IMG/VR virus record: IMGVR_UViG_3300046002_005108
Span: 1 to 34,354 of that record
Source: a virus
Length of the DNA: 34,354 nucleotides
Strand: one strand, 5' to 3'
Translations under genes and position numbers: made by a program
Shown: one piece after another, positions 2,825 to 31,483 of the stretch
Layout of the letters: each line of letters opens with the position of its first letter
How positions within the stretch are numbered: position 1 is the stretch's first letter
Notes under the pieces: model-generated
The model's input: only the letters and a program-made list of their open reading frames with translations
The model's database searches: none
What the model was told of the DNA's origin: nothing

Positions 2825-3119
2825 CCAGCAAGAATGGTTCACCGAGCCAGAGGCGGCCGAATACTGCCGATGCTCCTTCCGGGCCTTCCGAGAGATGCGC
2901 CTGCCCGCCAGGAACTCGGGCGGCCGAAAGGTCTACAATCGGGCCACCCTTGATGCCGAGCTGAACTCCCGCCCGTGGCAACCCTCTACAAGCGCGGCCC
3001 GTCCTACTATCTCAACTGGCGTCGGGACGGTAAGCAGTATCGCCGGACTCTCGGCCCGATTGACCGAAAAGCCGCTGAGGCCGTTCGCGCCGAGAAAGAA
3101 GCGGAACTCGCAGGGCTAA
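2817..3119 (+). CDS. xis: excisionase-like winged-helix DNA-binding protein
   Basis: The first ~54 residues form an excisionase/MerR-type helix-turn-helix: FTEPEAAEYCRCSFRAFREM (helix 1-turn-helix 2), then LPARNSGGRKVYNRATLDAE, as in the HTH_17 family. Small proteins of this type bind arm sites and direct the integrase towards excision. The gene lies directly upstream of int. The recognisable fold ends near position 2980; the last ~48 residues (to 3119) overlap int by 145 bases in another frame and look low-complexity (Pro/Ser/Arg). The tail may be an unselected extension or a real DNA-binding tail. ATG 2817 overlaps the previous stop by 8 bases. The excisionase role is inferred from fold and position. 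Confidence 0.7.
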   Translation: MGSQQEWFTEPEAAEYCRCSFRAFREMRLPARNSGGRKVYNRATLDAELNSRPWQPSTSAARPTISTGVGTVSSIAGLSARLTEKPLRPFAPRKKRNSQG

Positions 3120-8927: not shown

Positions 8928-9685
8928 TAGGCGGCAACCGTGCCGATCAAGTAGACCTTCAGGCCCTTGGCGCCCGTGCCGTCCACGTCAATATCCACGC
9001 CGATAATGTCGCCCTCGGCAAAGTCGAGGATGCCGGAGATTACCGGGGGAACGGTCGCCGTGAGGCTGCTAGATTCCGTGTCATCAATGGTGATGACCGT
9101 CGAGAACACCGACGAACCGTTTTTGCTCACGTCCACAGTAACAGGGCCACCGGAGGCCGATGCGGTATTGAGCGAGGCCCAAATCTTTGAGCAGGCGAAG
9201 GCGCGGGGCGCACGCATACGGACCACGTTAGCGCCGGCCACAATGTCGGTCGTTTCGTCCGAGCAGGCAATGGCCAGGTCATACGGGTACGCGATGCCGA
9301 GCGCCGTGCGGGCAGCCCCCACGGTCGTGGCCCCGGTGCCGCCAAGGGTAACCGGGACAACGTAGGTCGCCAGCCGGGTATCAATGGCGTCGATCAGGCC
9401 GTTATCGTCGTAGCCGATAATCCCGTCAACGGTGTCAATCGTGGCGTCATCGGCGTCCGTGATGACAAACCGGAAGGCCGAGCCAGCAGGGAGGTACACG
9501 GTTGCAGCGCCCGCCGCGTCCAGTATGATGGGGTTGGCGTGGGCGATGGACCCGCCCGAGTTCGTGTAGGTGGTCGCCGGGGTCGAAGTGCCGGTAACGT
9601 AGGTGTAGACCTTGCCCCCGGCCAGAAAGTCCCCATTGGTAGGGTCGAAGAACTGCAAGAACGGGGCCGGGCTGATGATTGCCAT
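8927..9685 (-). CDS. tail fibre/spike with head-binding-type N-terminus
   Basis: 252 aa. The first ~60 residues (FFDPTNGDFLAGGKVYTYV and then HANPIILDAAGAATVYL) match the N-terminal module of many podovirus tail fibres, comparable in role to the P22 tailspike head-binding domain. The C-terminal 130 residues are beta-rich with no enzyme motif. Probably the particle-proximal adaptor of the receptor-binding apparatus. It is the first tail gene after the terminator at 9696-9720, so a separate promoter or readthrough must drive it. Confidence 0.75.
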   Translation of the reverse strand: MAIISPAPFLQFFDPTNGDFLAGGKVYTYVTGTSTPATTYTNSGGSIAHANPIILDAAGAATVYLPAGSAFRFVITDADDATIDTVDGIIGYDDNGLIDAIDTRLATYVVPVTLGGTGATTVGAARTALGIAYPYDLAIACSDETTDIVAGANVVRMRAPRAFACSKIWASLNTASASGGPVTVDVSKNGSSVFSTVITIDDTESSSLTATVPPVISGILDFAEGDIIGVDIDVDGTGAKGLKVYLIGTVAA

Positions 9686-9695
9686 TGGGACTCCA

Positions 9696-9720
9696 AAACA
9701 GAAAGCCCGCTAGGCGGGCT
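9696..9720 (-). terminator. probable rho-independent terminator after the ejection-protein gene
   Basis: On the minus strand the stem AGCCCGC / GCGGGCT (9704-9720, loop CTA) is followed by TTTCTGTTTT. It lies between the large ejection protein gene and the tail genes. Its U-tract is interrupted, so it is probably partial or subject to antitermination. Confidence 0.65.
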
Positions 9721-9732
9721 GGGGGATGCGGG

Positions 9733-9909
9733 ATGGATGGCGTAGTTATTGGATTGCTGGTCAAGGGCTTTGCCGTTGTCGCAATCGTTGGCGGGGTCTA
9801 TTTCCTTGGCGATGTTTTCGTGCCGTGGCTGTCTCGCTACTGGCCTAATTGGCTGTTCAAGAAAGCCCTATTCACCCGCCACGGTGAAGGCCCTCAGTCG
9901 CCCCGATAA
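9733..9909 (+). CDS. opposite-strand small membrane protein, moron candidate
   Basis: 58 aa from ATG 9733 on the + strand, inside an otherwise minus-strand late region. It has a hydrophobic segment at about residues 3-25 (VVIGLLVKGFAVVAIVGGVYF), then a second amphipathic stretch rich in Trp (VPWLSRYWPNWLFKK) and a charged tail. It fills the gap between ejection and tail genes; its last 16 bases overlap the convergent ejection gene. In P22 this same slot between gene 16 and gene 9 holds the immI/sieA exclusion genes. A superinfection-exclusion or lysogenic-conversion role is an inference. The start has only a weak G-rich ribosome-binding site, and no clear promoter is seen. Confidence 0.55.
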   Translation: MDGVVIGLLVKGFAVVAIVGGVYFLGDVFVPWLSRYWPNWLFKKALFTRHGEGPQSPR

Positions 9910-24341: not shown

Positions 24342-24904
24342 TCTTCAATCACCAAGGCCCACTCGCTCACCGGCTTGGTGAACGGCTGCACCAGGGCCAG
24401 CCTCATGCCGCTGCTGAACTGGCCGAAGCCGGTGATGACGCCCACCAGCTCGCCCTTGTCGTTGAACACCCCTGCCCCGCTATCCCCGTGGGATACGTTC
24501 AGGTCTAGCAGCGTGCGTTCGGCGTCACCGCCCACGACATAGCCACGGCGCAACAGGTCATTGATGCTGTTCGGGTTGCCGTACATGAACACGCTAGCGC
24601 CCTGCACCATGCCTGCGGTATTCAGCGGGCTATGGGCCGGGAAGTCCGTATCCAGCGTGAGCAGCGCGTGATCTAGGCCGTCGTGGCGGTACTCCACCAC
24701 GTTGACCGGAATCATGTTGACGGTCAGCAGGGCCGAGCCCTCAAAGCAATGGGCGGCGCTAAGAAGCGTCCTAGGCCCGATCATCGTTCCCGAGCAGCTA
24801 CCCTCACCGGTCAGGCCGAGAACGACCACTGACGGCTTCACGGACTGCTCTACAGGGATGACGCTGCACCCTGCCAGCATCAGGACTAGCAGGGCAGTTT
24901 TCAT
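24338..24904 (-). CDS. trypsin-like serine protease, predicted lipoprotein
   Basis: 188 aa. The N-terminus MKTALLVLMLAGCSVIP is a lipoprotein signal with lipobox LAGC and Cys13. The mature part is an S1-family chymotrypsin fold: His52 in LLSAAHCF, Asp78 in GLDHALLTLD and Ser142 in SHGDSGAGVF. All three catalytic residues are in place, with the oxyanion Gly-Asp-Ser-Gly. The enzyme would be anchored to the envelope with its active site in the periplasm. Position +2 is Ser, which does not signal inner-membrane retention. It starts one base into the HslV-like gene's stop. The substrate is unknown; roles in envelope remodelling or exclusion are guesses. Confidence 0.88.
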   Translation of the reverse strand: MKTALLVLMLAGCSVIPVEQSVKPSVVVLGLTGEGSCSGTMIGPRTLLSAAHCFEGSALLTVNMIPVNVVEYRHDGLDHALLTLDTDFPAHSPLNTAGMVQGASVFMYGNPNSINDLLRRGYVVGGDAERTLLDLNVSHGDSGAGVFNDKGELVGVITGFGQFSSGMRLALVQPFTKPVSEWALVIEE

Positions 24905-25395
24905 TAGCGGGCCTTCCTGCTGGCCGTCCGGCTAACCTTGTGAACGGTCAGCCCATGCGGCTCGGGTTCGGTGGGCGGGATAACGCTCATGCTCAATATC
25001 GGGCCGGAACTCATCGCGTCCAGCTCGCAGGCTTTGGCGACGGCTTCCACGGGGCCTAGCCCCTGGCTCATCAGCAGGCGCGCCAGGTCAGCGCCACACC
25101 CTGCCGCGTAGGTGGTGTCCAGAATCGGGTACGCGGGCCACTGGCCGTTAGCGACCCATATCGAACAGTCGGGCCGGACGATGTAAACGTCGGCATCCTC
25201 GATGCTCGGCGGGTCGCCAATCTCGCCCTTCACCAGCCAGCTAATGCCGGCATAGGCGGCGCACCATTGCCCCGCGCCAGTCGCCACGCCCCCGTCAGGG
25301 AGCCGGAACACCTTTTGGCAGCGGACGGCGTGATTGCCGCCGGTTAGCTGGGAGTCGGCAGCCACCAGCCCATCGGATATGGCGATGGTGGTTAT
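24904..25395 (-). CDS. HslV-like Ntn-hydrolase (proteasome-type peptidase), AUA start likely
   Basis: The frame reads TTIAISDGLVAADSQLTGG from 25392, then CQKVFRLPDGGVATGAGQWC and YAGISWLVKGEIGDP. This is the HslV/proteasome-beta pattern: N-terminal Thr1, Asp13 (AAD) and Lys27 (QKV), as in HslV Thr1/Asp17/Lys33. No ATG, GTG or TTG allows this N-terminus. The codon before Thr1 is ATA (25393-25395), with GGAG 9 bases upstream. An in-frame stop lies at about 25444-25446 (TAA). Starting at GTG 25365 would give 153 aa lacking Thr1. I favour initiation at AUA, giving 163 aa; alternative: a mutated start or an inactive protein. First gene of the late operon. Confidence 0.75.
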   Translation of the reverse strand: MTTIAISDGLVAADSQLTGGNHAVRCQKVFRLPDGGVATGAGQWCAAYAGISWLVKGEIGDPPSIEDADVYIVRPDCSIWVANGQWPAYPILDTTYAAGCGADLARLLMSQGLGPVEAVAKACELDAMSSGPILSMSVIPPTEPEPHGLTVHKVSRTASRKAR

Positions 25396-25817
25396 GGCGG
25401 CGCTCTCCGTTAATGGGTGAATCTGCGCGGGCTGGCCTCGTTATCACGCCGGGTGCGACCCAGTTATTCGTGTATCCAGCGAAGGTCTGTCCCCCAATCC
25501 GGGTCGGGGCCGCGCAAAACTGGTGCCGTCTTTCCGGCTGTCAGCCGCCCTCTATCCCGGTACGGACTCCCCTTTATCAGTGAGGGCCGGTCGGGCATGT
25601 GCAGGGTTGGCTCCCTGCGGGCTATGCCGCCTCTCGGCGGTTACTGCGTGCGCCGGCTTCGGTTTCCGGTCACCTTCCGGGGCGGCCAACTTCCCGTGCC
25701 CGGACCTCCCGCACGACTTTGGTAGGTCGCCGGGGGCTTATGCGGCTCCAACCCGGCTAGGGATTCTTTAACCCCATCAGCGTTCATAGTTTCATGCCGC
25801 CGATAGGTCGCTGCGGC
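25396..25817 (-). ncRNA. gene-free 422-nt hairpin-rich segment; candidate structured RNA or late leader
   Basis: No supported ORF on either strand. Read on the minus strand it contains successive perfect stems: 25796-25800/25813-25817, 25729-25734/25752-25757 (GCCGGG/CCCGGC), 25703-25707/25724-25728, 25676-25681/25699-25704 (TCCGGG/CCCGGA), 25653-25656/25666-25669 with GTG/CAC outside, 25627-25640 (CCGCC-GAGA-GGCGG, a GNRA loop), 25601-25618 (GCAGGG/CCCTGC), 25547-25552/25582-25587 (GCCCTC/GAGGGC), 25525-25538, and a long-range 25460-25465/25518-25523 pairing. Joining segments are A-rich on this strand (GATAAAGG, GGAAAGA, ACGAATAAC), as in folded RNAs. It lies between a Q-like gene and the late operon, where lambdoid phages keep the late promoter and leader RNA. 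Confidence 0.5.
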
Positions 25818-26327
25818 CTAAGCCCTGCGCTGTACAGCCACCGCCCAGCCTAGCGCATCCTCGTACTGCGCTATTTGCAGCAGCACCACGCCAGCGATCA
25901 GGTCGCGTACCCGCCTGTAAGCGTCCCGGTGGCATCCGAACTGTTCAGCGCGGCACACATGGCCCATAACCTTGGCGGGGCCGTACAGCGCCATAGCGAG
26001 GCCGTCCAGGGCCGCTTGTTCGCCCCAGTGGGACTCATAGCTAGCAACCAGCAGGCGGCGGCGCTTCCCCAGCAGCGGCTTAACCGTCGCCATGCACCGG
26101 GCAAGGTCTTTCACCCATTGCGCCAGCGCCTCGGCGTGGCAGTCCACGTCGGCCACAAAGGTAATCCACGCGGCATAGCCGATATGGCCGGGCGGCAGGG
26201 TGGACGTTGCCAGCGATAGGGACCAGATGGCCGTGTCGTTTAGCGGGATGCGTCCGAAGCCTGCGTAAAGCTGGCGAAGGTCGCGGCCTTTGATCTGGTA
26301 ATCGGCTTGAATCTGTAGCGCGTCCAT
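25818..26327 (-). CDS. candidate late-gene regulator (Q-type antiterminator)
   Basis: 169 aa from ATG 26327, chosen for the AGGGGAAAG 7 bases upstream; a GTG seven codons earlier also opens the frame. Basic helical protein. The end (FGCHRDAYRRVRDLIAGVVL) looks like a helix-turn-helix of the sort found in phage Q/DUF antitermination proteins, and SYESHWGEQAALDGLAMAL precedes it. The position is telling: last gene after the nin-like region and right before the gene-free stretch and late operon, as Q is in lambda. Function is inference from synteny with weak sequence support. Confidence 0.55.
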   Translation of the reverse strand: MDALQIQADYQIKGRDLRQLYAGFGRIPLNDTAIWSLSLATSTLPPGHIGYAAWITFVADVDCHAEALAQWVKDLARCMATVKPLLGKRRRLLVASYESHWGEQAALDGLAMALYGPAKVMGHVCRAEQFGCHRDAYRRVRDLIAGVVLLQIAQYEDALGWAVAVQRRA

Positions 26328-26337
26328 GCGCTTTCCC

Positions 26338-26583
26338 CTATCGGTCACTTCTGCAATAAGCGCACATCCTTGCGCCTCGGTGAATCATCGTTTCCCGGCT
26401 ACCGCAGCCGCCGCAGGGTTCGCCGCGCTCGACTTGTTGGGCGGGCAGCCATTGGATATCACTAGCTTCACGAACAAGAATCAGCGCGTTCCGCTGCTGC
26501 ATTGCTGCCGTCATTGCCTGCTGATACGCGGCACTGTGTTGCATCCCAGCCGCCGCAAACCCGTTCAATATCGCGCCAAACAC
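26338..26583 (-). CDS. 81-aa protein with C-terminal zinc ribbon
   Basis: An N-terminal Gln/Ala-rich helix (MQHSAAYQQAMTAAMQQRNA) is followed by four Cys in two pairs, CGGC and CAYC, near the C-terminus (about residues 57-77) with an intervening ETMIHRGAR. This matches the short zinc-ribbon pattern. It precedes the Q-like gene, whose ribosome-binding site overlaps this stop. Role unknown. Confidence 0.6.
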   Translation of the reverse strand: MFGAILNGFAAAGMQHSAAYQQAMTAAMQQRNALILVREASDIQWLPAQQVERGEPCGGCGSRETMIHRGARMCAYCRSDR

Positions 26584-29330: not shown

Positions 29331-29506
29331 TTGCACTCCCTCCCCTGCGCGGCCCGGCTAAGGGCTTCGGCCTCACGGGCTGCACGGTTGCGCTCGGCGG
29401 CGTCCTGCTGGCGGGCTTCACGCAGCATCCGGTCCAGCACGCCACAGGTCATGGCGCGGCGCTGTTCATCGGTCAGGGGTTCGGGGGTGTAGTCAATGGT
29501 GGTCAT
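29327..29506 (-). CDS. hypothetical 59-aa helical protein
   Basis: ATG 29506 overlaps the stop of the RNA ligase-like gene (ATGA), and the stop overlaps the DUF551 GTG. The product is an almost continuous charged helix (TDEQRRAMTCGVLDRMLREA; RQQDAAERNRAAREAEALSR), likely a coiled coil. No family recognised. Confidence 0.6.
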   Translation of the reverse strand: MTTIDYTPEPLTDEQRRAMTCGVLDRMLREARQQDAAERNRAAREAEALSRAAQGRECK

Positions 29507-30036
29507 ACAGCCCCCTTCGGCACTTCGTCCTTTTCAATCGTTTTCTTGAAGCCGACGCGGCCCGCGATGTGATAGACCACAACGCCTTCCGGCTTCATAA
29601 AGCCAGGGGCGGCGGCGCTGCCCTCAAAGGCCAGCCGCTGCAATGCGGTTTCAATCTCGAAGGTGTCGAACAGGCCCCGGTAAAGCACCGGGACCACATG
29701 GCAGCAGGCCGGGCGCGACTCGCCCCAGCGGTCCACGTTGAACAGCGAGAATCGCTTGTGGTCAATGCCGTACTTGCGCTGGATGCCGCAGCCCCACCAT
29801 TCGCCAAAGTGGCTGCCGGGGCCAAGCTGCATCAGCTCATCGCGGTTGGCGTAGGCCCACGCAGCGAAGCCGAAGTTATCGGCGTCCGGTGTAATCCAGC
29901 GGGTGCGGCTGCCGACGTAGAAGCCGCCGTCATCGGTAATGCAAATCTGCGCGTTGGTGCCGTCGATCTTTTCCGTGACCACAATTTCACGGGAAAGGCG
30001 GGGCATCTTCGGAAACTCTACAAATTCAATAGCCAT
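29503..30036 (-). CDS. RNA ligase-family nucleotidyltransferase, short form
   Basis: 177 aa from ATG 30036. Covalent nucleotidyltransferase motifs in order: motif I EKIDGTNAQI with Lys23 as adenylation site, Ser-Arg at VGSRTR (43-46), motif III-like FGEWWG (77-82), FSLFNV, motif IV PEGVVVY (149-155) and motif V FKKTIEK (163-169). This is the RNA_ligase (PF09414) core. There is nothing after motif V, so the C-terminal domain found in full-length Rnl2 enzymes is absent. Role probably in RNA repair against host tRNA-cleaving defence, inferred from the family. Confidence 0.88.
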   Translation of the reverse strand: MAIEFVEFPKMPRLSREIVVTEKIDGTNAQICITDDGGFYVGSRTRWITPDADNFGFAAWAYANRDELMQLGPGSHFGEWWGCGIQRKYGIDHKRFSLFNVDRWGESRPACCHVVPVLYRGLFDTFEIETALQRLAFEGSAAAPGFMKPEGVVVYHIAGRVGFKKTIEKDEVPKGAV

Positions 30037-30215
30037 CACTTCGCTCCCTTGTTGTCCGCAGCGCAGGCGGCTTTCGCCTCGGCTGCCGTGGTGTAAATGC
30101 CAATGGTTTCGCGGCCCTTGACCGCCTTGAACAAATCGCCAGCGCCGGTCACGTTGCGGCTGATGACGTAAGCGCCGCAGCGGATGGCGTGGGTGCCGTC
30201 CTTTTCCCATTTCAC
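30036..30215 (-). CDS. hypothetical 59-aa basic protein
   Basis: Starts at GTG 30215 (GTGA with the helicase stop) and ends in TGATG with the ligase start. Sequence MKWEKDGTHAIRCGAYVIS, then GAGDLFKAVKGRETIGIYTT, an alpha/beta pattern found in small phage proteins of unknown function. The start and end couplings support translation. Confidence 0.6.
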   Translation of the reverse strand: MKWEKDGTHAIRCGAYVISRNVTGAGDLFKAVKGRETIGIYTTAAEAKAACAADNKGAK

Positions 30216-31483
30216 AGGTCGTCATCTCTTTTGCTGCTCGGCCTCGGCTCTGACCACTCACGGTCGGACGGCAGGAAGCGGCAACGCTCTAGGTCGTCTT
30301 CCATGCGAATCAGCCCCGTTGGCCCGTTGCGCTGCAAAGCCACGTCCAGGCGCAGGCCCGGCGATTCTGTCTTGTCGTAGTAATTCGGGCGGTGCAGCAG
30401 GAACATCGCGTCACAGTCCTGCTCAATCGTTCCCGACCCGCGAGCATCGGACGGTCGCGGCGGGCGAATAGCCCCGGCCTCGTTGCCTCGGTTGACCTGA
30501 AAGACCTCGATCACCGGCACATCGCACTCTTTCGCCAGCTTCTTAATCCGGCGGGTCAGGAAGCCCAGCCGGGCGGCTTCGTTCTCAAGGCGCGGCTGCT
30601 CGATGAGCTGCAAGTAATCAATCACCACCAGCGCCGGCTTAGCCTGCCGGGCGTGGGCCTCGATCTGCTCGATGGTCAAGTCCATGCGCTCGGACAGCAG
30701 CAGCGGGGACGCTTTCAGGTCGGCCATCGCCACGGACAATTGCGACCATTCGTGGTCTTCCATCGCCTTCGGGCGCAAAAGGCCCACGCTGCGGACGCCA
30801 GCAAGCGCACAGGCCATGCGCTGCATCAGTTCGTCCATCGACATTTCCAGGCTGAACCCGGCGACACGCTGGCCAAGGTTCACGGCCACATGGGCGGCGA
30901 TCTGCCACGCCAGGATGGACTTACCCATCTTTGCCCGAGCGCCCAGCGCGTAAACCCGGCCCGGCTGCAATCCCCCGGTCATCGCGTCAAGCTGCGGGAT
31001 TCCCGTAAGAAGCCCGGACATTTCCTCCTTGGCTTCCCAGCGGGCCATGACGCCCTTCCACATCGCGCCCGCCGCTTCCTTCGCCGTGACCAATCGGCCC
31101 GGTTGGTCGTCGCTGATGCTGGCGATGAGGCTTTGTGCCTCCGTCAAGTCACCCTGCGCGGCTATGCGCTCACCGGCCAGCCTGACCCTGCGGGTGGTAG
31201 CGGAAAGGCGCACGGACTCGGCGTAGGCCCGCACGTTCGCCGCAGACGGCGTATCCGATGCGAGCTTGAAAATGTACGGGTCGTTATCAGCCCAATTCGT
31301 CGCCTCCATGACGGTGAAGGCGTCAATCGGGCGGCCCGCATCGTTCAGCGTGCCAAACGCTTTCCAAATCGCGGCGTGGCCGTCAATCGTGAAATGGTCG
31401 GCGGTCAGTAGGTCGGCAACCCGCCAGTACGCGGACGGGTCCAGCAGGACCGCGCCAAGGACGTTCTGTTCACTTGCGCTCAT
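30212..31483 (-). CDS. dnaB: replicative DNA helicase, DnaB-like
   Basis: 423 aa from ATG 31483 with GAGG upstream; a TTG 15 bases earlier is less likely. N-terminal DnaB domain (SASEQNVLGAVLLDPSAYW; DHFTIDGHAAIWKAF), linker, then RecA-like C-terminal domain: Walker A ALGARAKMGKS with Lys188, SLEMS with Glu213, Walker B VVIDYLQL with Asp289, and QVNRGNEAG. Hexameric 5'-3' helicase loaded by the upstream O-like initiator. Overlaps the initiator gene by 14 bases. Confidence 0.95.
   Translation of the reverse strand: MSASEQNVLGAVLLDPSAYWRVADLLTADHFTIDGHAAIWKAFGTLNDAGRPIDAFTVMEATNWADNDPYIFKLASDTPSAANVRAYAESVRLSATTRRVRLAGERIAAQGDLTEAQSLIASISDDQPGRLVTAKEAAGAMWKGVMARWEAKEEMSGLLTGIPQLDAMTGGLQPGRVYALGARAKMGKSILAWQIAAHVAVNLGQRVAGFSLEMSMDELMQRMACALAGVRSVGLLRPKAMEDHEWSQLSVAMADLKASPLLLSERMDLTIEQIEAHARQAKPALVVIDYLQLIEQPRLENEAARLGFLTRRIKKLAKECDVPVIEVFQVNRGNEAGAIRPPRPSDARGSGTIEQDCDAMFLLHRPNYYDKTESPGLRLDVALQRNGPTGLIRMEDDLERCRFLPSDREWSEPRPSSKRDDDL

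Follow-up and report, generated by a model that had tools for sequence, protein, structure and literature searches.

The gap and its flanking genes

The window, by which we mean the whole stretch of 34,354 nucleotides that was analysed (IMG/VR virus record IMGVR_UViG_3300046002_005108), is tightly packed with genes, and codon-model gene calling places its longest gap at 25366-25817, the next longest being 332, 264 and 217 bp. Directly upstream on the minus strand lies a gene for a 176-aa protein (25818-26348, minus strand), a candidate Q/AlpA-like antiterminator by its homologues and by the model of a relative, and the first gene downstream encodes an HslV-family peptidase (24904-25395, minus strand; phrog_1040, E = 7e-18). 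Because homologues of the peptidase align from residue 1 at the AUA codon at 25393-25395, they indicate that the gap proper would be 25396-25817, a slot of 422 nt. This AUA is apparently the start codon: at the same codon the homologues in loci L180 and L181 read ATG ACC and TTG ACC, respectively, where the window has ATA, possibly through a sequencing error, and the start listed for the open reading frame (GTG, 25365) would drop the N-terminal Thr-Thr of the protein. A Shine-Dalgarno-like GGAG precedes the gene (25405-25408, minus strand), in a CAUUA(A)CGGAG context that resembles the leaders of L087 and L180.

The segment 25396-25817 is non-coding. All six frames gave negative coding scores, with 2-7 stops each, and the open reading frames tested inside it matched no Pfam or PHROG family; the claim of the original prediction that this stretch is free of genes was thus borne out. 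The minus (late-gene) strand of the segment has an AT skew of +0.31, the third highest of 679 windows.

Homologues of the 176-aa protein were found in L180 and L186 (51%), and also in L181, L182, L087 and L200-L205, the sources being Xanthomonadaceae-family genomes and IMG/VR. While Pfam and PHROG hold no family for it, and the AlphaFold model of the window's own protein reached a pLDDT of 42, a model of the L203 homologue built from a nine-sequence alignment reached a pLDDT of 75. The best meaningful match of the latter was to 7xya_G, a chain of the AlpA-loading complex (prob 0.96, TM 0.48, E = 0.45), and it also resembled a phage antitermination protein Q (prob 0.82, E = 0.13). The Q-like label given earlier to this gene, and with it the assignment as a Q/AlpA-type antiterminator, has weak but convergent support from these resemblances.

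The terminase relatives of the window phage have P22-type portal and coat genes, and the window itself carries an integrase gene; it is a temperate P22-like podophage. Its late region includes a trypsin-like protease gene (PF13365, 24338-24904), which is kept together with the HslV-like peptidase in related phages, and an RNA ligase is encoded at 29503-30261 (PF09414, E = 1.7e-12).

Folding of the segment

The minimum free energy of the minus-strand RNA was -182.6 kcal/mol (z = -2.75), with one of 100 shuffled sequences as low; z against shuffles ranged from about -2.3 to -3.2 on this strand and was 0.0 on the plus strand. The segment ranked second of 84 windows of the genome by its fold, yet four windows lay at or below z = -3.0. 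Equally low scores elsewhere in this GC-rich genome mean that the energy of the fold cannot by itself settle the matter.

The most strongly predicted feature is a long-range closing helix of about 23 bp, absent from the helices listed earlier, in which a 5' arm at 25738-25762 (RNA nt 56-80) pairs with a 3' arm at 25492-25517 (RNA nt 301-326), both on the minus strand; pair probabilities are 0.6-1.0, and the arms form an inverted repeat (I1, 81% over 21 nt). On its 5' side lies a hairpin, CCUAUCGGCG...CGCUGAUGGG (25773-25807, minus strand; pair probability 0.97), and within it a multibranched domain (25540-25690, minus strand) closed by an 11-bp helix (0.81), the inner branches of which are uncertain. 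Several stems have pair probabilities of 0.9-1.0, and the other most confident elements are hairpins at 25601-25618 and 25525-25538. Two pairings had been singled out beforehand. The GNRA hairpin CCGCC-GAGA-GGCGG (25627-25640, minus strand) is present in the minimum free energy structure with a helix probability of 0.84; the proposed CCAGTT/AACTGG pairing (25460-25465 with 25518-25523) is complementary in sequence but does not occur in that structure.

The A-rich character of the minus strand had also been read as a sign of folding, with A-rich segments joining the helices. The skew itself stands, but 79% of the A residues are unpaired in the predicted fold against 76% (sd 3) in shuffled sequences, and we dropped A-rich loops as evidence. 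This result, together with the four of 84 control windows that fold as well or nearly as well, favours one alternative, namely that the segment is an ordinary untranslated spacer or leader, the hairpins and A skew of which arise from GC-rich composition and purine loading of mRNA, with no conserved fold. Against a mere spacer stand its 422 nt of non-coding sequence inside a packed genome and the confinement of the fold excess to the minus strand. The size of the gap, the lack of coding signal, the strand-specific fold and the A-rich composition mark the slot as a candidate structured leader RNA, and the segment probably makes a folded RNA.

Searches for known RNAs and for direct homologues

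The Rfam search proposed with the original prediction (release 15) returned no family at its gathering score for the segment, and only chance-level matches at relaxed thresholds; the weak match to Scr2736, which scored 23.3 bits where the cut-off is 43, was taken as chance. ARAGORN found no tRNA or tmRNA in the segment, and no covariance model for group I or II introns, RNase P or other ribozymes matched it at gathering or relaxed thresholds, in agreement with the claim that it matches no known RNA.

Direct homologues of the segment were likewise not found by blastn among 50,697 phage records, by blastn or nhmmer in 166 loci, by an exact pattern in IMG/VR, or with a covariance model built from the single sequence (R1), and blastn against 395 genomes of the Pseudoxanthomonas family gave just chance-like pieces of 20-40 nt. 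The absence of a homologue in these phages and loci speaks for a spacer. Two candidates were rejected: L114 1191-1617, an analogue in length and skew, reads as coding, and L189, which matches the 17-mer CCGCACAGCCTCTAGCC, reads as ParB-like coding sequence.

A structured RNA in the corresponding slot of related phages

A scan of IMG/VR for the HslV-like gene yielded six phages, L200-L205. In each of them 0.5-1 kb of non-coding DNA, containing strongly conserved blocks, comes after the Q-like gene; L201 and L205 have extra ORF-like sequence in between. Within the L200-L205 RNA, core A spans about 152 nt and seven helices, with changes on both sides in 12 of 39 pairs, and its covariation was 0.316 against 0.140 (sd 0.021) in shuffles, while slid controls did not exceed 0.085. 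Core B, of 60 nt, forms a three-way junction with a covariation of 0.246 against 0.135 in controls. Given that they come from six related sequences, these covariation figures are descriptive and carry no formal probabilities.

A shorter version of the RNA occurs in L087, a prophage of Pseudoxanthomonas koreensis KCTC 12208, and in L181 and L182. The core is ordered P2 - GCC-UCU - variable hairpin - GGCA..GCC-AGA - P2', and the L200-L205 RNA extends it by further covarying hairpins and the three-way-junction domain. Helix P2 varies in sequence between the groups but is complementary in nine of nine (with one G-U pair, in L205). In a scan of both strands of 4.5 Mb, a P2/GCCTCT/GCCAGA descriptor that requires at least six P2 pairs matched every one of the nine slots and just four sites elsewhere; its strict form occurred once in 198 genomes, at the known slot. 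The gene upstream belongs to a single family in all slot-bearing phages, and Rfam gave no match for the slot RNA of these relatives. On this comparative sequence evidence, nine related phages or prophages carry, behind the Q-like gene, a conserved structured RNA that is not catalogued in Rfam.

Two insertions break up the slot RNA of L205 (2568-3613), a tRNA-Ser(tga) gene at 3033-3117 and an ORF that by eye resembles an HNH endonuclease; in L201 an ORF that by eye is GIY-YIG-like separates the RNA from the Q-like gene. L181 has a second non-coding gap of 485 nt before its trypsin-like gene (9288-9772 in reverse-complement coordinates), containing the 15-mer GGCGGGCCGTAATCC, which is common to L181 and L034.

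Relationship of the window segment to the slot RNA

Like these relatives, the window has a non-coding gap behind a Q/AlpA-like gene of the shared family and ahead of the late-side genes, and it has motifs that partly resemble theirs and a match of 20/21 nt to L202. It differs in lacking the P2/GCCTCT/GCCAGA core: the descriptor for P2 - GCC-UCU - hairpin - GGCA..GCC-AGA - P2' found nothing in the window slot, and its strict form nothing in the whole window. The covariance models built from the relatives (R2 and R3) did not find it at a meaningful E, and the wide search gave nothing significant; the best score was 7.2 bits (R3, E = 0.07 for 601 nt), and an R2 match in L206 fell by chance within coding DNA.

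This best R3 match in the slot consists of AGAGGCGGCAUAGCCCGC followed by a hairpin and GC (25601-25634, minus strand), where AUAGCCCGC plus the hairpin has a likeness to core B of the L200-L205 RNA. The stretch 25492-25508, within the 3' arm of the long-range helix, also resembles the core-B hairpin (loop CCCGGAU, 5.3 bits). Further, TGACAGCCGGAAAGACGGCAC at 25523-25543 (minus strand) is identical in 20/21 positions to L202 2887-2907 in the corresponding slot, a suggestive but weak link to the family. When 649 windows were aligned with the L202 slot under strict local scoring, the segment came first, a rank shared solely with windows overlapping it; over all slots the tests were mixed, with a summed rank of 14 of 649 and nothing remarkable for most slots taken singly.

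The proposal of a new structured RNA is partly supported: the slot of the relatives carries a covarying RNA outside Rfam, while the window itself fails the motif test and matches the covariance models below threshold. The window copy is too divergent for its identity with the relatives' RNA to be proven; it may belong to that family in diverged form, have taken the place of the family RNA, or have no relation to it. L180 (identical to L186), the nearest relative by flanking genes, has 116 nt in its slot and no core domain, and this short and different spacer in the closest relative again favours the spacer explanation; a covarying RNA in the corresponding slot of the other relatives argues against it. 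Weighing these points, we consider an ordinary spacer a serious minority possibility. Slightly more probable, though still tentative, is the specific proposal that Q/AlpA-type genes of temperate phages are directly followed by a new family of long structured RNAs, absent from Rfam, which turn on the late operon in cis together with the protein; the window would carry a strongly diverged member.

Promoters, terminators and the proposed role

The window slot contains no convincing sigma-70 promoter and no terminator, and the L200-L205 slots no good promoter or terminator, although a phage-specific or host-specific type of promoter could escape such a search. Their absence suggests that, in phages of the window type, the RNA is read within a transcript arriving from upstream, and for the same reason a role in cis appears most likely; that this role would concern the late message is suggested by the position of the slot between the antiterminator and the late genes, ending in the next Shine-Dalgarno sequence.

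The broader reading that we favour, with confidence evenly balanced between acceptance and doubt, is that the window segment forms a structured leader RNA where the early and late regions meet, a diverged or replaced version of that of the relatives, and that this RNA probably works in cis together with the Q-like protein. We infer transcription of the segment, homology of the window copy, the role in cis and the coupling to the Q-like protein. The minus-strand RNA would be made as polymerase leaves the early/regulatory region, directly behind the Q/AlpA-type gene, and would in cis help to set up or hold a Q-like antitermination complex, or protect or process the late message; its target might accordingly be elongation, processing or stability of that message. 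The window version would be lineage-specific, strongly diverged or replaced, and built on the long-range helix of about 23 bp.

That an RNA of a phage can by itself act on transcription in cis is shown by the put RNA of HK022, which has about 70 nt in two stem-loops, lies just downstream of the early promoters PL and PR and needs no phage protein (PMC9378689). The RNA proposed here would likewise be a phage-encoded structured RNA acting in cis on transcription, but it has 422 nt and another fold, follows a Q-like gene where the early and late regions meet, and showed no sequence link to put; the earlier suggestion had invoked put for its mode of action, at a much larger size. Were the slot RNA to work with the antiterminator, it would add an RNA-based arm to late-gene switching, where known Q proteins use a late-promoter DNA site. 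Whatever its function, the covarying RNA of L200-L205 and their relatives is a structured family outside Rfam, and because it is tied to one gene family it is directly testable.

A classical lambdoid late leader, with pR', tR' and a Q-binding DNA site, would place the function in the DNA and not in the fold. The arrangement of antiterminator gene and late region is that of lambdoid Q and of the Pseudomonas aeruginosa AlpA region, the Q-like model resembles AlpA and Q, and the slot lies directly behind the Q-like gene. In the Q systems known, loading takes place at a DNA site within the late promoter (PMC6606751). No such promoter was found in the window or L200-L205 slots, nor a terminator, and the slot of the relatives holds a structure that has been kept by covariation, so that a classical leader is improbable here. 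In favour of such a leader, three more distant related phages, L034, L051 and L095, do have a strong sigma-70 promoter in a long gap before the terminase genes, with terminator-like hairpins by eye. The promoter-bearing stretches are L051 6812-7639 and L034 1294-2025, which are largely non-coding, and L095 4679-5461, which has two small ORFs; in L051 and L034 an apparent A-rich tail follows the terminator-like hairpin (by eye), and these may be long late leaders of another type.

A stand-alone RNA acting in trans, either an sRNA or a large ornate RNA like GOLLD or ROOL, processed from the late transcript, is in our estimate decidedly unlikely. The segment recalls these long, phage-linked non-coding RNAs in its length, its multibranched fold and the long-range helix that closes it, and the slot RNA of the relatives tolerates insertions, including the tRNA-Ser gene of L205; large phage RNAs near tRNAs tolerate such insertions. 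Rfam covariance models for GOLLD, ROOL or any other family gave no match, however, and the RNA here is smaller and in every case follows, in cis, a gene of one family, running into the Shine-Dalgarno sequence of the next gene. An intron or ribozyme, or a remnant of one, is very improbable even given the endonuclease-like ORFs in the slots of L205 (HNH-like) and L201 (GIY-YIG-like), both labelled by eye, as none of the intron or ribozyme families matched at either threshold and no exon is interrupted, since the genes on either side of the slot are both complete, with their stop and start codons.

Near the late genes of L200-L205 (at about 7.9-8.5 kb) and of L182 (6209-6298), ARAGORN also called tRNAs of the amber-suppressor type, with the anticodon CUA and the label Pyl.
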